From Pontibacter korlensis (GTDB lineage: Bacteria > Bacteroidota > Bacteroidia > Cytophagales > Hymenobacteraceae), in NCBI RefSeq assembly GCF_000973725.1, contig NZ_CP009621.1, positions 310,001 to 374,000 of the forward strand: a stretch of 64,000 bases of DNA, written 5' to 3'. Shown here in pieces: positions 14,407 to 20,614 of the stretch. Under the pieces are notes generated by a model. It was not told the origin of the DNA. It saw only the letters and a list, made by a program, of their open reading frames with translations, and made no database searches. The position numbers and the translations under genes are program-made. Within the stretch, counting starts at the first letter, position 1. Each line of letters starts with the position of its first letter.

Positions 14407-15234
14407 CTGTAGGGCTCGGGCGAGAAGAAGGCGCTGGTGGGGTTATGGTAGAGGAGCACGGGGTGAGCGTGCGTCAGGCTTGCAGGGCAGCGGGTGTAGC
14501 CAGAAGCACCTATGAGTACAGACCAAAAGAGAAAGACGACAGCCTCATCGCCCAGGAGCTGCAACTGTTGGTGGAGAAGCACCCGGCCATCGGCTTCTGG
14601 CAATGCTTCCATAGGATCAGGAGGAAGGGCCACGGCTGGAATCACAAGCGGGTGTACAGGGTCTACAGCCAACTGAGATTAAACATCCGCAGGAGGCACA
14701 AAAAGCGGCTGCCGGCCTGCGTGAAGCAGGCTTTGTTCCAGCCGGAGAAGATCAACCAGGTCTGGTCGGTGGACTTCATGAGTGACAGCCTCTGGGACGG
14801 CCGTAAGTTCCGGCTCCTCAACATCGTCGATGACTATAACCGGGAGATCCTCTCCATGGAGGCGGATCTCTCGATCCCGGCTCTTCGGCTGATACGGGTG
14901 CTCCGGGTACCTCAAAGAGTTCAGAGGGCTGCCGGAGATGATCCGGGTGGACAACGGGCAGGAGTTCATCTCCCAAAAGCTCGAGGACTGGTGCAAGGAG
15001 AACAAGGTGCGGCTGGTGTTCATCCAACCCGGCAAGCCCATGCAGAACGCCCACATCGAGCGCTGCAACGGCAGCATCAGAAGGGAGCTGCTCAACGCCT
15101 ACGTGTTCAAAACGCTATCAGAGGTGCGCCAGAAGGCCGAGGAGTGGATGGAGGACTACAACCACCACCGGCCGCATCAGGCGCTGAACTTCAGAACGCC
15201 GGTGGAATTATTGGAGGAGCTCACAAACCACTAA
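14407..15234 (+). pseudogene. IS3-family OrfB (DDE transposase), frameshifted
   Basis: From MVEEHGVSVRQACRAAGVAR (14445) the frame reads a normal IS3 integrase core: WSVDFMSD with the first catalytic Asp, then NIVDDYNREIL. At about 14905 it shifts. The rest lies in another frame (VDNGQEFISQKLEDW with the second Asp, then HIERCNGSIRREL with the Glu), ending LEELTNH at 15234. Upstream, GEKKALVG is in yet another register relative to MVEEHG. All three catalytic residues survive in DNA but not in one frame, so the protein is dead. Confidence 0.85.
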
Positions 15235-15282
15235 ACTGTCAGATAAACTCCGACTTTTGATTAACAATTACGTTTCAAATTA

Positions 15283-15321
15283 GCAAGAAACCCGCTATTG
15301 CTTATACATATTGTTAGCGGT
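15283..15321 (-). repeat. attC-like site at the end of cassette A, truncated
   Basis: The inverse core ACCGCTAAC (read on the minus strand, 15321-15313) lies 14 bp after the DUF1761 stop and matches the 5' core of the same unit. The first arm follows (AATATGTATAAGC), but the second half is missing; the IS3 remnant begins about 20 bp away. Confidence 0.55.
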
Positions 15322-15335
15322 TCGGCTTTTTTCAT

Positions 15336-15755
15336 TCAGTTTGATATTGCGTAAATTATTAGTGTTAATAAAATTATTCCTAATGCTTGAGCTGTTCCTG
15401 TTATTGCTCCAAAAGTTAAAGGTTTTTTCATTATAGGAATTACAGAGGTTGTAAAAACAACTGCCGTAGCAATCCCGAATCCTATCAATATCCCAAGTCT
15501 TAATGCATCATTGTATGAATTTGCGATTGTAAGCTTCAACAGAATGGCGATTACAACTGTAGTAACGCAACAAGATACTAAAGGCACTATGTAATAAATG
15601 TTGGTTTCTTTCCAATTTTCAGGTCTTTGAAATCCCATCGCTTCTTCCCACTTTTTACCGAAAGCAAATTGCCGGTGCCAAATACCACAAAATACACAAT
15701 AGAATATTGTCCCAACTGCAATAGCGACCCAATTAAGTTCTGTTATTATCTCCAT
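15336..15755 (-). CDS. DUF1761 family membrane protein (cassette-borne)
   Basis: 139 residues with four hydrophobic segments (about 5-25, 50-72, 85-105 and 118-137). The DUF1761 hallmarks are WHRQFAFGKKWEEAMGF after the first helix and the glycine-rich third helix (LGILIGFGIATA). The function of the family is unknown. It starts 4 bp after the upstream DUF6157 gene ends, so the two are co-transcribed and belong to one cassette. Codon use is AT-rich compared with chromosomal neighbours, which suggests acquisition. Confidence 0.85.
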   Translation of the reverse strand: MEIITELNWVAIAVGTIFYCVFCGIWHRQFAFGKKWEEAMGFQRPENWKETNIYYIVPLVSCCVTTVVIAILLKLTIANSYNDALRLGILIGFGIATAVVFTTSVIPIMKKPLTFGAITGTAQALGIILLTLIIYAISN

Positions 15756-15759
15756 TGGG

Positions 15760-16170
15760 CTATTTCCTGGATTTCATTGCTTTCACTTTTTTAATTTCCG
15801 TGTCCGCTAAGAATTTTTGATAATCGTCTGTTTCCATTCCAAAAAGCGCCACCTTCCCGTTACTGTCGCTATGAATGCCAAAACCGTAAGTTTTGGTCAA
15901 AGGGGAAGCTCGGAAGCAAGGTTGTCCATTTGAGAAAAACTGATCTCGTGCTTGTTTATATTCGGATTTTGTCAATTCCTTTCTGTCAGCAAACACCTGA
16001 AAGAAAACATCATCAGAAGTGAATTTATAGGGATTTTTTGCAATCATTTCGTATTGCATTTCCGCAACAGTCTTTTTGTCTTTTGTTGGTGGTTTAGTTC
16101 CACTGTCAGCTTTTGTGTCGTCCGCAACTTCAATAAAAGTGTCAAAATAGTTTGTAGAATGTATTTTCAT
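15760..16170 (-). CDS. DUF6157 family protein (cassette-borne)
   Basis: 136 residues, soluble, without a signal peptide. Recognisable family features are the N-terminal STNYFDTFIEVADDTKADSG, KKTVAEMQYEMIAKNPYKF, SDDVFFQVFADR, and the C-terminal GQPCFRASPLTKTYGFGIH. I assign DUF6157 from memory of this pattern. No biochemical role is known to me. It is the first gene of cassette A; its 5' core site lies 40 bp upstream of the ATG, leaving little room for a separate promoter. Confidence 0.75.
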   Translation of the reverse strand: MKIHSTNYFDTFIEVADDTKADSGTKPPTKDKKTVAEMQYEMIAKNPYKFTSDDVFFQVFADRKELTKSEYKQARDQFFSNGQPCFRASPLTKTYGFGIHSDSNGKVALFGMETDDYQKFLADTEIKKVKAMKSRK

Positions 16171-16209
16171 TTCGTTGTCGCTTTAATTCTTTTTGGTCGT
16201 TTTTAGCTG

Positions 16210-16277
16210 ACCGCTAACGTTTAGTACAAAAGGTGAGCGAGGCTTAGGCGAAGCTTAACTTTTGTGCCGTGTTGGGG
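16210..16277 (-). repeat. attC-like site between cassettes B and A
   Basis: 68 bp imperfect palindrome. Outer parts: ACCGCTAAC at 16210-16218 (core of cassette A) and GTTGGGG at 16271-16277 (inverse core of cassette B). Inner stem: GTACAAAAG 16224-16232 against CTTTTGTGC 16259-16267 with one wobble. The layout of outer R boxes, inner L arms and a variable middle is that of an attC site. The outer boxes deviate from the strict RYYYAAC/GTTRRRY consensus. Confidence 0.65.
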
Positions 16278-16287
16278 AGAGCTTTTC

Positions 16288-16764
16288 TTATTTCAGCTTA
16301 TTCACGTGAATTTCTAAAAATCCAATTCCTGTATCTTCTACTTCTTCCAAGTACCCTTCTTTCATGATGAAACATGATTGAGTGAAGTATTCTTTCTGCT
16401 TAGGATTGTCGCTGGCGGTGATAAAGAGGGTATCTGATTTCAAGTAATAGGTTCCAGCTGATTTTACTTCTCTGAATCCACCAATTTCAAATGTCTTATC
16501 TTCATAAAGCTTTAGTACTATGCCGCCGATTGATGCTTCTCTGGAAGCAACTAAAACTTCTTTCTTGTTTTCAGAATTATAAGAGAAGAACAGTTCTTCC
16601 GCTACTATTAATAAACTTAATGATAATACCGCAGAAGCAAAAGATATAGCTGCATTTCTTAGCGTTGCTTTTCTTCTTTTTATCAGAAAGCCTAATAGAA
16701 ATATTAAAGTTAGTATGAGACCAACTGCCATTATTAATATCACTATTATTGAAGCTATTTCCAT
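16288..16764 (-). CDS. Two-helix membrane protein of unknown function (cassette-borne)
   Basis: 158 residues. The first membrane helix is at about 4-27, followed by a basic loop (KRRKATLRN). The second is at about 37-57. Then comes a soluble domain of about 100 residues, rich in beta-strand-like stretches (GGIVLKLYEDKTFEIGGF, GTYYLKSDTLFITAS), which would lie outside the cytoplasm if both helices span. I do not recognise the family; similar short lipocalin-like tails occur in Bacteroidota surface proteins. It is the sole gene of cassette B, with cassette cores 10 bp after the stop and 12 bp before the start. Confidence 0.7.
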   Translation of the reverse strand: MEIASIIVILIMAVGLILTLIFLLGFLIKRRKATLRNAAISFASAVLSLSLLIVAEELFFSYNSENKKEVLVASREASIGGIVLKLYEDKTFEIGGFREVKSAGTYYLKSDTLFITASDNPKQKEYFTQSCFIMKEGYLEEVEDTGIGFLEIHVNKLK

Positions 16765-16826
16765 ACTTTAAGTTTACCCCAACGGTTGGGCTAAAAAGCG
16801 TTTAAATGATTTTTAGCTTTTGTGCT

Positions 16827-18455
16827 TGTTGCACAACCTATTGAAGATAATCGTAAAAGCATATATTACCAAATCTTTGACAGGATGCAGGGCAGGAAAA
16901 CTTTCGAAGACGAGCGGGAGCTGTGCTTCTCGCTCTCGGTGCACGTGCCGGCGCACAACTTCTACCGGCGGCTCAAGGACAAGCTCGACCTGGAGTTTCT
17001 CTACGAGCTGACGGCTCCTTATTACGGCAGGTGCGGCCAGCACTCGATTGACCCGGTGGTCTTCTTCAAGCTCTGCCTGGTAGGGCACCTGGAGAACATC
17101 AGCTCTGACCGCCGCCTCATTGAGCACTGCAGCCTGCGCCTGGACCTGCTCTACTTCCTGGGTTACCAGCTTGACGAGCCCCTGCCCTGGCACTCGACCG
17201 TATCCCGCACCCGCCAGCTGCTACCCACCGAACTCTTCGAGGAGGTCTTCACCCGCGTGCTCGCCCTGTGCGCAGACGCCGGTATGGTGTCAGGCCATAC
17301 ACAGGTAGTGGATTCAGCCTTGATCAAAGCCAACGCCTCGATGGACTCGCTCGAGCTGAAGGTGCCCCGCCAGGAACTGGCTGATCATCTGGAGCAGGTC
17401 AGAGCCATCAGCCCTGCCGACCGCAAAGCCATGCGTGACAAGGCCAGCCAGCAGCAGCGCACCCTCTCCGCCAGCCGCGACGAGCTGCAGGAGATCCGGG
17501 CCCGTAACCGCAAGTGGGGCAAGGACCAGCACCCCGGAGCGAGCAACAAGGATAGCCGCTTCACCTCCAACAAGACGCACTACTCGCCGGTGGACCCCGA
17601 CTCCCGCATCGCGGTAAAGCCGGGAAAGGCCCGCAAGCTTTGCTATCTCCTGCAGCTGGCGGTGGACACCAGCCGCCATGTCATCACCCATGTGCATGCC
17701 GACCTGGCCGACAAAAAAGACAACCAGTGCCTGCCTCCCCTCTTACAGCAACTGCTCCCCAGGCTAGAGCACCTGGAGCTACACTGCAGCACCTTGCTGG
17801 CCGATACTGGCTACTCCTCAGGCGAGAACTACGCGCTCTTGGAGCGGCAGGCCGTCACGGCCTTCATCCCGCCCCACGGCCCTTACAAAGGTGGGCCGGA
17901 GGGCTTTACCTACCACCGGGAGGGTGATTACTGGCTGTGCCCCGAGGGCAGGAAGGTGACCTTCCGCAACGTGCTGGTGGAGAAGAAGAACAGCAATAAA
18001 AAGAGAACCTACTACACGACCAGAAAGGACTGCAGAAACTGCCCCTCAAAAGAGAGTTGCATCGGTCACTTGCATGTCAAAAAGATAGAGGTCACCTACT
18101 ACCGCGACGAGTACGAGCGCACCATTGCCCGCCTGAACAGCCGCTGGGGCCGGCGCATGAAACGCCTGCGGCAGGCCACCGTGGAGCCGGTGCTGGGCAC
18201 GCTGCTCGACTTCCTGGGCATGCGCCGGGTCAACACCCGGGGGCTGGAGCTGGCCCACAAGGGTATGCTGGTGGCCGCCGCAGCCTACAACCTGCAGAAG
18301 TTCTTGCGCTTCACCCCAAAAAGAAGCCAAACAGCCGTCATGGCCCTGCCCAGGCCTGACCTGGAAACGTTTTTCAAGATGGTTTTGGGGAGCCTGAAGA
18401 GAAGTGAAATCAGAAATGGTATAGAGACCACAAGTTACTGAAGAGTTGTGCAACA
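16827..18455 (+). mobile_element. IS1182-family insertion sequence
   Basis: 1629 bp with perfect 11-bp terminal inverted repeats (TGTTGCACAAC at 16827-16837 and GTTGTGCAACA at 18445-18455). The flanks show GCT on both sides (16824-16826 and 18456-18458), a possible 3-bp target duplication. A single transposase gene fills the element. It lies inside an attC-like palindrome. Confidence 0.88.
16885..18441 (+). CDS. IS1182-family transposase (DDE)
   Basis: I choose ATG 16885 (MQGRKTFEDERELCF), giving 518 residues; the longer frame would start outside the element. The N-terminal DUF772/InsH domain is at about 15-120 (IDPVVFFKLCLVGHLENISSD). A DDE_Tnp_1 core follows with QVVDSALIKANAS, the middle LADTGYSSGENYALLE and a cysteine-bearing block (RKDCRNCPSKESCIG). 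The C-terminal RQATVEPVLGTLLDFLGMRR carries the final glutamate and the HKGMLVAAAAYNLQKFL signature. The frame is intact and GC-rich compared with the cassettes around it. Confidence 0.93.
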   Translation: MQGRKTFEDERELCFSLSVHVPAHNFYRRLKDKLDLEFLYELTAPYYGRCGQHSIDPVVFFKLCLVGHLENISSDRRLIEHCSLRLDLLYFLGYQLDEPLPWHSTVSRTRQLLPTELFEEVFTRVLALCADAGMVSGHTQVVDSALIKANASMDSLELKVPRQELADHLEQVRAISPADRKAMRDKASQQQRTLSASRDELQEIRARNRKWGKDQHPGASNKDSRFTSNKTHYSPVDPDSRIAVKPGKARKLCYLLQLAVDTSRHVITHVHADLADKKDNQCLPPLLQQLLPRLEHLELHCSTLLADTGYSSGENYALLERQAVTAFIPPHGPYKGGPEGFTYHREGDYWLCPEGRKVTFRNVLVEKKNSNKKRTYYTTRKDCRNCPSKESCIGHLHVKKIEVTYYRDEYERTIARLNSRWGRRMKRLRQATVEPVLGTLLDFLGMRRVNTRGLELAHKGMLVAAAAYNLQKFLRFTPKRSQTAVMALPRPDLETFFKMVLGSLKRSEIRNGIETTSY

Positions 18456-18483
18456 GCTACTGTGGTTATGGGTAGGAGTGCTA

Positions 18484-19251
18484 TTAATGCACTAATTTGA
18501 TATGGCTATTAGTAAGTTCTATAACCCTAAATCTCTGCCCATAGATTAACCCTTCACCATTTTTTTCGTCATCACCATTCATATACAAATAGGTTGTGCC
18601 ATTTATGATATCAAATTGGTAATCATAATAGATTTTTCTCCTTTTGCGATACAATACCGCTTCTTGAGGTTGAACAAATTCAAAATATTCATCCATTGTG
18701 GAGTTTGCTGGAATTTTTTCCAGTATCCATTCTGATTCTAATTTTAGGTTTTCAAGTTTTTCGTTTTCCTTCCATTTACCAACCAATCTTTTTGAAAGTA
18801 AAACATTAAAGTTTTCTCTCTCAATTTGAAGTTCCTTGAAGTAGCTTTCAAAGATTTCGTTTTCTAAATTCTCAAATGTTAGTGACTTCCAATCGCAGAA
18901 TTTGAAGATTTTCAACTTTCGGTCGTCTATTTCAACTTCGTAATATTGAACATATGAACTTAGCATAGTCTCCTCGCAATCCTCTGAATAGCTTTCCGCT
19001 AACTTCACGAAGGAGTTTAAATTAGATATTGATTTTTCGCTTAGTACAGTTTTGGATGAAGCAAGTTTATCCTTATTTGGAATTGTAATCCTTCCGACAA
19101 CGGCATTTCCTTCCAGATTAAATGACATTTCCCTAACTGTATAACTCTCATCACCAAAAGTGTGCTTTATTTTCAATGTATTGAACACTGGCTTTTCTTG
19201 CGTTGTGCAACCCAAAAGGAAAAGCGAGAATATATAAATGAGAATTTTCAA
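18484..19251 (-). CDS. Lipoprotein of unknown function (cassette-borne)
   Basis: 255 residues. A short signal ends in a lipobox (LFLLGC, Cys15), predicting a lipid-anchored periplasmic or outer-membrane protein. The mature part is lysine- and glutamate-rich with alternating strand-like segments (VVGRITIPNKDKL, YYEVEIDDRKLKIFKFCDW). A C-terminal domain (about 155-255) starts KRLVGKWKENEKLENL and has many tyrosines, similar in style to lipocalin-like immunity or surface proteins, but I cannot name a family. Base composition is strongly AT-rich. It is the sole gene of cassette C, flanked by matching cores at 19270-19279 and 18465-18474. Confidence 0.7.
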   Translation of the reverse strand: MKILIYIFSLFLLGCTTQEKPVFNTLKIKHTFGDESYTVREMSFNLEGNAVVGRITIPNKDKLASSKTVLSEKSISNLNSFVKLAESYSEDCEETMLSSYVQYYEVEIDDRKLKIFKFCDWKSLTFENLENEIFESYFKELQIERENFNVLLSKRLVGKWKENEKLENLKLESEWILEKIPANSTMDEYFEFVQPQEAVLYRKRRKIYYDYQFDIINGTTYLYMNGDDEKNGEGLIYGQRFRVIELTNSHIKLVH

Positions 19252-19269
19252 AATTTCGGATTTATATCT

Positions 19270-19411
19270 TACCCATAACTATAGTATATACGACAACATA
19301 CGCTTATCTGCACTATGTACGTAGTTGCTGCAGCATGCTTTCGCACTTCTTTGCTGGCTAAATCCTGTAAAATTGAATGAGGCGTACATGGTCGTATATG
19401 TTTAAGCTAAT
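19270..19411 (-). repeat. Large attC-like palindrome between the recombinase remnant and cassette C
   Basis: Long imperfect inverted repeat: 19285-19303 (TATATACGACAACATACGC) against 19382-19400 (GCGTACATGGTCGTATATG), with a middle of about 78 nt. Its inner end carries TACCCATAAC, the core of cassette C. On the other side it runs to within about 12 bp of the recombinase stop codon. Confidence 0.6.
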
Positions 19412-19422
19412 ATAGGTGTTTG

Positions 19423-20056
19423 CTATAAATTATCCAATGGGCTGGTGATTTTATCCAAGGCATGGGTGGTGATGTGGGTGTAGATTTCGGTGGTCTTGCT
19501 GCTCCGGTGCCCCAGCAGCACCTGGATATACCTTAAGTCTGTTCCCTGCTCCAATAAATGGGTGGCAAAGGAATGGCGCAGCGTATGGGGCGTGGCGGGC
19601 GCTTTTAAACCCGCCTTTCCCCTTACTAGCTCGAAAGACATTGCGGATGCTTTCCACCGTGTACTGCCCGCCCGTCTGCCCCTCAAAGAGCCATACATTG
19701 GGCTTATACGCTTCATAGTAGGCACGCAAACTTTCCAGTAGTTTTTGCGAGAGCAGTGTGGTGCGGTCTTTCTTGCCCTTGCCGCCCCGTATGAGCAGCA
19801 GATTCCGCTCTGACTGCACGTCGGTAAGCTTCAGGTTGATCACCTCCCCAATTCTTAGTCCGCCTGCATACAGCAACTGGAGCATGCAGCGGTGCTTTAA
19901 GTTCTCGGTCACGGATAGGATCCTGAGCACATCCTGCTTGCTTAAGACCTGGGGCAGGCGCTGGGGCTTTTCAGGCTGCTCTACCTGGCTGAGCTGCACT
20001 TCGTGGGGTAATAATACGCGCTTGTAGTAAAACCTCACCGCGTTGATCGACTAATT
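19423..20056 (-). pseudogene. Tyrosine recombinase (XerC/D-like), truncated and frameshifted
   Basis: Read on the minus strand, the remnant begins at about INAVRFYYKRVLLPHE, immediately after an in-frame TAG, so the N-terminal SAM-like half is missing. The catalytic domain is recognisable: Arg I in [13 protein letters not shown], Lys in [14 protein letters not shown] one-base insertion at about 19611-19615 then shifts the frame. [35 protein letters not shown] (with the Tyr nucleophile) and the end SPLDNL are in the second frame. There is no sign of the extra helix that distinguishes integron integrases. It lies in the same orientation as, and directly upstream of, the cassette array. Confidence 0.85.
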
Positions 20057-20174
20057 GCAAAGGAGCAGGAATAGGTGCCTGCCTGCTCCAGCGGGTTCAG
20101 GTAAAGGACAGGTAATTGAGAGGGATAAGCCATAAGTATAATGAGACGGTTACTGCCCCTAAAGGTAAAACCTT

Positions 20175-20236
20175 TCAAAACCGTATCCGTGTTACTACCC
20201 GGGTATACCCGGGTAGTAACACGGATACGGTTTTGA
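20175..20236. repeat. Perfect 62-bp palindrome
   Basis: Two 31-bp arms with no spacer, centred between 20205 and 20206. The inner part is CCCGGGTATACCCGGG and the outer parts are TCAAAACCGTATCC and its complement. A smaller AAAGG/CCTTT inverted repeat abuts it at 20161-20175. There is no T-run and no gene end, so it is not a terminator. It could be two abutting terminal repeats, a minimal hairpin element, or an inverted duplication. Confidence 0.9.
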
Positions 20237-20614
20237 GCCAATCCAGAACATGCGCCCAGTGCGGCACCGGCATCATGGGCAGGAGCGACAAGCGGTACTG
20301 CTCCGACCAGTGCCGCTACCTGGCCAACAACGCCGCCAAGCAACAGAGCCAAGGTGAGAGGCGCGTGCAGCAGGTCAACGCGGCCCTGAAGAGGAACCGC
20401 AGCATCCTCCGCCAGCTCAGCCCCCAGGGCAAGACCACCTTGCCGCGGCAGTACCTGGAGCTGGCCGGCTTCGACTTCCGCTACCTGACCCAGATCTACC
20501 GCACGCAGAAAGAAAACACGTATCATTTGTGCTACGACTAGGGGTATATGCTTTTGCCCGAGGAAGAAAGTGCTGATCGTGAACTGGCAGCCTTACATGG
20601 ACGGGGGGCGGTGA
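20232..20614 (+). pseudogene. Zinc-ribbon protein gene (Bacteroidota conserved), broken
   Basis: From a TTG at 20232 the frame reads SQSRTCAQCGTGIMGRSDKR, then YCSDQCR: a CxxC...CxxxC zinc ribbon. A helical part and LSPQGKTTLPRQYLELAGF, FRYLTQIYRTQKENTYHLCYD follow. This matches a common small Bacteroidota protein that normally continues YGYLLLPEE..VLIVxWQ. Here a TAG stands at the YD-Y junction (20539-20541). The remaining VLIVNWQPYMDGGR is in a shifted frame ending at 20614. The normal ATG is missing and the palindrome lies exactly where the N-terminus should be. The gene is inactive or expresses a truncated product. Confidence 0.65.

Follow-up and report, generated by a model that had tools for sequence, protein, structure and literature searches.

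Evidence for a decayed chromosomal integron of a kind outside current definitions in Pontibacter korlensis

Organization of the locus

The window, i.e. the whole stretch of 64,000 nucleotides that was analysed (positions 310,001 to 374,000 of contig NZ_CP009621.1 of Pontibacter korlensis), contains a short array of gene cassettes that reads, in minus-strand order, recombinase remnant, attI-like site, cassette 1, an IS1182-family element in the attC of this cassette, cassettes 2 and 3, and an IS3 remnant. The features are the following:

20233-20541, plus strand: divergent companion gene encoding a small zinc-ribbon-like protein, shortened (102 codons vs about 126)
20175-20236, unstranded: 62-bp operator-like palindrome between the companion gene and the recombinase gene
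19423-20133, minus strand: remnant of a tyrosine recombinase (integrase) gene, with start MAYPSQLPVLYLNPLE and intact C-terminal end ...SPLDNL
19280-19318, minus strand: attI-like site ACATAGTGCAGATAAGCGTATGTTGTCGTATATACTATA, immediately followed by the first cassette core, intact in the window
18465-19279, minus strand: cassette 1, core GTTATGGGTA at 19270-19279 and inverse core TACCCATAAC at 18465-18474 (pair 3)
19251-18484, minus strand: ORF of cassette 1, 255 aa, no Pfam family
16826-18460, plus strand: IS1182-family insertion inside the attC of cassette 1 (outer limits approximate; NF033551, 331 bits)
16822-18441: IS1182-family transposase
16828-16837 and 18445-18454: terminal repeats of the IS1182-family element, GTTGCACAAC/GTTGTGCAAC
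16777-16826, minus strand: IS-separated half of the cassette 1 attC, including R' of cassette 2 (covariance model R1, 21.2 bits, E 0.0086)
16271-16783, minus strand: cassette 2, core GTTGGGG at 16777-16783 and inverse core CCCCAAC at 16271-16277 (pair 2)
16764-16288, minus strand: ORF of cassette 2, 158 aa
16212-16277, minus strand: attC of cassette 2 (model R1, built without the window, 55.9 bits, E 3.5e-11)
15313-16218, minus strand: cassette 3, core GTTAGCGGT at 16210-16218 and inverse core ACCGCTAAC at 15313-15321 (pair 1)
16170-15760 and 15755-15336, minus strand: DUF6157 and DUF1761 genes (Pfam) of cassette 3
15261-15312, minus strand: distal array end, a weak inverted repeat where an attC would be expected
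14445-15260: IS3-family transposase remnant (partial IS3 match), into which the distal array end runs

An earlier note, made from the sequence alone, had claimed that three neighbouring units are each delimited by a private core and its exact complement, that such pairs are unlikely to arise by chance and that the units are integron-type cassettes whose genes share one orientation. The three pairs were confirmed exactly at their positions, the inverse core lying 14, 10 and 9 bp after the stop codon for pairs 1, 2 and 3, respectively. The claim on chance held as well: with the ORF ends fixed, matches this long occurred in shuffled flanks with P = 3e-4, 0.025 and 1e-4 (product 7e-10, about 1e-9), and the flanks of 39 other ORFs of the window, taken as controls, showed complementarity of no more than 5 bp. 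The cassette reading also held, on the minus strand, and is better supported than it was at first, because the array is headed by an attI-like site and a matching recombinase, long intact arrays exist in relatives and the search for the same gene with the same pair was positive (see below). Two points on the genes required correction, namely that the shared strand is minus, so that the array runs from 19279 to 15313, and that the 906-bp unit contains two genes (DUF6157 and DUF1761). The earlier note had also overlooked that the integron differs from the known IntI kind and that its copy in the window is decayed.

Structure of the attC-like sites

The statement that the sequences between the units fold as attC-like palindromes was only partly upheld: a strong attC exists only at 16277-16212, the attC between units 2 and 3 is interrupted by an IS1182-family element and so does not form a plain palindrome, and the distal site below 15313 does not match the attC model (model R1; fold z of -1.65). 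The remark that the cores deviate from GTTRRRY was correct, as 13 of 73 cores fit this consensus (the sites had been chosen for GTTR).

An alignment of 61 attC sites was examined with a 19-pair structure, in which pairing amounts to 84.5%, compensatory cells number 214 vs 86+-11 in shuffles and the covariation score is 0.399 vs 0.147. Since MAFFT followed by RNAalifold yielded only a short consensus stem, columns that are complementary to each other were used to derive the structure, which was tested with count_structure_pairs; this biases the slid-column control towards the structure and, to a lesser degree, the shuffle control. The bottom strand is the more stable one in 66 of 70 attC-like sites (mean -11.2 vs -8.2 kcal/mol). 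In 59 of the 61 sites the top strand has A.C at one position, which corresponds to G.T on the bottom strand; at a distance of two positions outwards, 50 of 61 sites have a pyrimidine-pyrimidine mismatch, purine-purine on the bottom strand. When all attC pairs of the top strand are counted, A.C occurs 126 times vs 23 for G.T. The better folding of the bottom strand is explained by the A.C pairs of the top strand, which become G.T, together with this mismatch pattern. No length asymmetry was seen in the stems, and the pair of A.C and Y.Y mismatches stands at the place where bulged (extrahelical) bases would be expected.

A covariance-model check was also performed. Model R1, built from these aligned sites and none of the window, recovered both the attC of cassette 2 and the half-site cut by the insertion sequence, with the scores listed above, and detects about 39 sites in the P. 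korlensis genome. It did not match the one class 1 integron region tested, and an Rfam search of the window gave no match.

With regard to the IS1182-family element, the four copies in the P. korlensis genome that have both terminal repeats (the window copy and L251, L252 and L253) are all located inside attC sites, inserted between the R'' spacer and the L'' arm. This element is an attC-targeting insertion sequence, a behaviour unreported for the family in the open-access literature searched.

The recombinase remnant, the attI-like site and the upstream region

The ORFs in 19423-20038 represent fragments of a tyrosine recombinase. TIGR02249 (integron integrase) is the top profile of the C-terminal fragment, with XerD close behind, and the remnant matches a recombinase family with 97% over 147 aa. 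Full-length members in relatives have 484 residues; the start MAYPSQLPVLYLNPLE of the window gene resembles theirs, residues about 16-264 are missing, and a stop and a frameshift follow. Because the gene is broken by deletion and frameshift, the window copy is dead, i.e. inactive in cis. A second copy of the gene, at 4.62 Mb of the same genome, has lost residues about 302-432, and no intact member of the family was found in this genome.

The attI-like motif is conserved in relatives across the family, about 117 nt after the recombinase stop. There, ACATAGTGCAGATAAGCGTATG...TA is found directly 3' of the recombinase stop, followed by cassettes that start at GTT (TA|GTT).

Palindromes of other sequence occupy the same upstream place in relatives, long in several and weak in others, and the divergent zinc-ribbon gene, whose product shows weak similarity to DUF2116, below the cutoff, is also present in about half of the relatives examined. 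The LexA motif of Hymenobacteraceae is CTAA-N5-TTAG (PMC8565304). Since this motif is absent upstream of the recombinase in 20 relatives and in the window, SOS (LexA) control of the recombinase is not supported, other kinds of control not being excluded. A promoter (Pc) reading into the array was searched for with a crude Bacteroidetes promoter pattern, without a match.

A recombinase clade without the IntI additional domain

The additional domain near patch III is the defining mark of the IntI integrase (PMC2426708, PMC9668308), and the shift from Xer-like recombination of double strands to single-strand recombination has been credited to the gain of the I2 helix (PMC7790495, PMC4792948). This insertion is not fully conserved among integron-like recombinases (PMC8138268), and in view of that report the gap described here may have been glimpsed before.

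Members of the clade retain the catalytic residues and are 41 residues shorter, at the place of the additional domain, than every IntI compared; the domain is missing. The spacing between the catalytic lysine loop and the HxLRH motif is 65-66 residues in the clade (62 in two members) vs 107 in every IntI measured. In all four relatives scanned, TIGR02249 scored about 200 bits, below its cutoff of 265, with the match split at profile position 179. The best profile score was that of the XerA-type NF040815 (202-209 bits in the family), also below its curated cutoff of 220, which one more distant array-linked member does pass (233.7 bits). In a tree of 68 rows the IntI proteins grouped together with 100/100 support, and the Bacteroidota recombinases formed a separate clade (98/86), sister to IntI in the best tree (98/83). 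A grouping with XerA was not rejected by the AU test (p 0.34), so that the sister relation to IntI remains tentative.

A second TIGR02249-like recombinase of the P. korlensis genome (102268-103064) was considered and discarded, being IS91-linked and without cassettes.

The N-terminal extension consists of a duplicated beta-beta-alpha-beta-beta-alpha-beta module (residues 9-75 and 112-179). The N-terminal part was folded alone (predicted structure, mean pLDDT 88), and the whole-protein fold search gave little information on it. The best VIA neighbour of the module was the XPB damage-recognition domain (Z 6.4, rmsd 2.3 A, 57 residues), and Foldseek returned SMARCAL1 HARP (probability 0.75, E 0.15); both matches are middling and could be due to chance. 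The XPB damage-recognition domain and SMARCAL1 HARP both interact with DNA that is distorted or forked. For many of the more remote recombinases the alignment begins only near residue 112 and covers a single module. It is no more than a guess that the modules read the attC hairpin in place of I2.

Arrays in relatives

Members of the recombinase family were detected (E<1e-40) in about half of the genomes of the taxonomic family, 77 out of 150. A scan of contigs covered 80 named loci (Pontibacter, Rufibacter, Adhaeribacter, Gillisia, Arenibacter, Aquimarina, Arcicella and others), of which 58 were tested. At least three linked private pairs were present 3' of the recombinase in 20 of the 38 named loci with at least 1.5 kb of downstream sequence, and 5' of it in none of the 57 with at least 1.5 kb of upstream sequence. 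Arrays with short cores are fused by the strict chain detection or escape it, and hence these array counts are lower bounds. As about half of the testable homologous loci show no array under the strict test, it is conceivable that some members of the clade serve other functions or that their arrays were lost. The private pairs of relatives are mostly 7-10 bp long and up to 15 cassettes occur in a row (L058). Plasmid-borne copies were found in Pontibacter kalidii and Rufibacter tibetensis, both with arrays full of attC matches; both plasmids are typed as mobilizable and their annotation mentions only a tyrosine-type recombinase and mostly hypothetical proteins.

Draft contigs often end within about 1.5 kb past the recombinase stop (L046, L048, L055, L060 and many of L117-L150). 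Array counts based on drafts are too low, because contigs break after the recombinase, as expected if cassette repeats break assemblies.

In an intact relative (L056, 5408-6200) one cassette carries, as judged by eye, a RelE/HigB-like toxin and an XRE-type antitoxin, and resembles the toxin-antitoxin cassettes of large chromosomal integrons. In more distant Bacteroidota (L096, L097, L101, L103, L107) some attC-like matches measure about 130 nt, twice the length found in the family of the window.

Traces of cassette movement

Two attI copies of the P. korlensis genome, at about 2.176 and 5.457 Mb, are preceded by about 700 bp that are alike (12 mismatches) and diverge exactly at GTT, their first cassettes being unrelated. 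One 247-aa cassette is present at two loci of this genome. The check for the same gene with the same pair was positive for the 158-aa gene of cassette 2 in four other genomes (L208, L209, L212, L216), where homologues 50-79% identical are flanked by GTTGGGG/CCCCAAC at about the same distances. The closest homologue of DUF6157 (L221) has GTTATCGGT and its exact complement in place of the GTTAGCGGT of the window; other DUF6157 homologues are without flanking pairs, and therefore this gene also lives outside cassettes. The attI copies, the duplicated cassette and the recurring pairs are most readily taken as traces of past movement, and they are not proof of present activity.

The same genome carries an 11-cassette array with no intact recombinase beside it (2168893-2176440, L245). 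Given that no intact recombinase of the family was found in the genome, its present arrays may no longer move or may depend on another enzyme.

One cassette of L245 carries a gene for a homologue of class D beta-lactamases (NF012161, 211 bits, cutoff 250; NF047782, 356 bits). Three of the attI copies of this genome (L095, L248, L249) continue with GTGCCTGTATTG... after TA instead of a GTT core; another element apparently inserted at or next to the attI cut point.

Interpretation and alternative explanations

Based on the available evidence, the window very likely contains a decayed chromosomal integron of a kind outside current definitions, although recombination was not observed: there is little doubt that it is an IntI-type integron in its architecture and not in its integrase. 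It is equally probable that intact versions, with the recombinase, an attI-like site just 3' of it and same-strand cassettes ending in attC-like sites, are common in the family of the window and occur in many other Bacteroidota. The architecture, the private pairs, the covarying fold, the strand bias, the conservation of attI, the different first cassettes at near-identical attI sites and the same cassette in different places are shown. The movement of cassettes, cutting by the recombinases of the clade, the single strand as substrate and the replacement of I2 by the N-terminal modules in hairpin reading are inferred, neither excision nor integration having been observed. In the most probable mechanism the bottom strand of attC would fold into a hairpin, which the recombinase would pair with attI, and a single strand would be exchanged at the G/TT that is conserved in the R core; a circular cassette would thereby be inserted at attI (TA|GTT) or cut out again, and the private core pair of each cassette would be the trace of this strand exchange.

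A bolder reading, which we neither favour nor discount, is that a second kind of integron, spread across Bacteroidota, recombines folded single-stranded attC without I2, using the HARP/XPB-like modules and the purine-purine mismatch beside G.T on the bottom strand for recognition, and that it represents either an independent origin or a state that precedes the additional domain.

Among the alternatives, the one that survives best is an ordinary integron whose IntI integrase is merely divergent. In its favour, the C-terminal piece matches TIGR02249 first, the relatives score about 200 bits with this profile and the best tree places the clade beside IntI. However, the four relatives scanned remain below the cutoff with a match that breaks at position 179, the Lys-His spacing is far from the 107 residues of IntI, the IntI proteins form a clade of their own with full support and few cores fit GTTRRRY, which makes this explanation unlikely.

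Less plausible still is that the cassettes are real and were moved in trans by a true IntI or the host XerCD, the neighbouring recombinase being incidental. The arrays of the P. korlensis genome that have no intact recombinase beside them speak for this possibility. Against it, no IntI above the cutoff was found in that genome, beside recombinases of the clade arrays occur on the 3' side only, and of the 105 genomes with canonical IntI among the 395 sampled in the phylum, all but one lie outside the class of the window.

Finally, ordinary interspersed repeats or transcription terminators, with core pairs as accidental stem ends, can be practically ruled out: intergenic palindromes are common and on the top strand the folding of one site in the window does not exceed that of shuffled sequences, but the cores pair across whole genes and not within one stem, the pairs differ between units and match within each, the attC sites show covariation and bottom-strand bias, and near-identical attI regions are followed by different first cassettes.

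Significance of the clade

Integrons of this kind are undescribed in the open-access literature searched; subscription papers and preprints were outside the scope and priority is not settled. Integron surveys, in which the additional domain serves to define the integrase, list almost none for Bacteroidetes; the one complete integron named there by IntegronFinder 2.0 is that of Salinibacter ruber (PMC9024848). Current searches pass the clade over because its recombinase lacks the domain thought to define integrons. If the clade works as it looks, it would constitute a large overlooked reservoir of mobile cassettes, in genomes from soil and marine habitats and in plasmids, including the cassette with the class D beta-lactamase homologue. 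Moreover, the claim on I2 gain could be tested directly in a related clade that has hairpin attC sites but lacks I2, which would also serve as a natural test of the origin of integrons.

Comparison with known systems

The system resembles IntI integrons (class 1 IntI1, Vibrio IntIA and other chromosomal integrons) in its tyrosine recombinase, the attI in cis, the same-strand cassette array, the hairpin attC with a private R core, the folding bias of the bottom strand and the insertion sequences that target attC. In contrast, the system is without the additional domain (I2) and has an N-terminal extension instead, its cores are GTTRNNN, its array lies 3' of the recombinase gene, and symmetric A.C and Y.Y mismatches stand where bulged extrahelical bases are expected. 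Of the criteria of an IntI-type integron, an attI in cis, a core-matched cassette array (in the window, in relatives and elsewhere in the same genome) and a structure-conserved attC with bottom-strand bias are fulfilled; the additional domain, the GTTRRRY core consensus and LexA control of the integrase are not.

Compared with XerA, XerC and XerD (NF040815, TIGR02224, TIGR02225), the clade is alike in the length of the catalytic core and differs in that it is not a single-copy dif system, is linked to cassette arrays and attI, and carries an N-terminal addition of one or two modules. Like CALIN (attC clusters lacking an integrase), the arrays of the window and of L245 are without a working integrase; unlike in CALIN, the cause in the window is the visible decay of the recombinase, and integron software, which requires an IntI-specific profile (PMC9668308), is not expected to recognise even the intact gene. 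Lastly, the IS1111-attC elements are insertion sequences that enter the attC sites of cassettes (PMC11187229 and its references), a property shared by the element of the window, which differs in belonging to the IS1182 family and in lying between the R'' spacer and the L'' arm.
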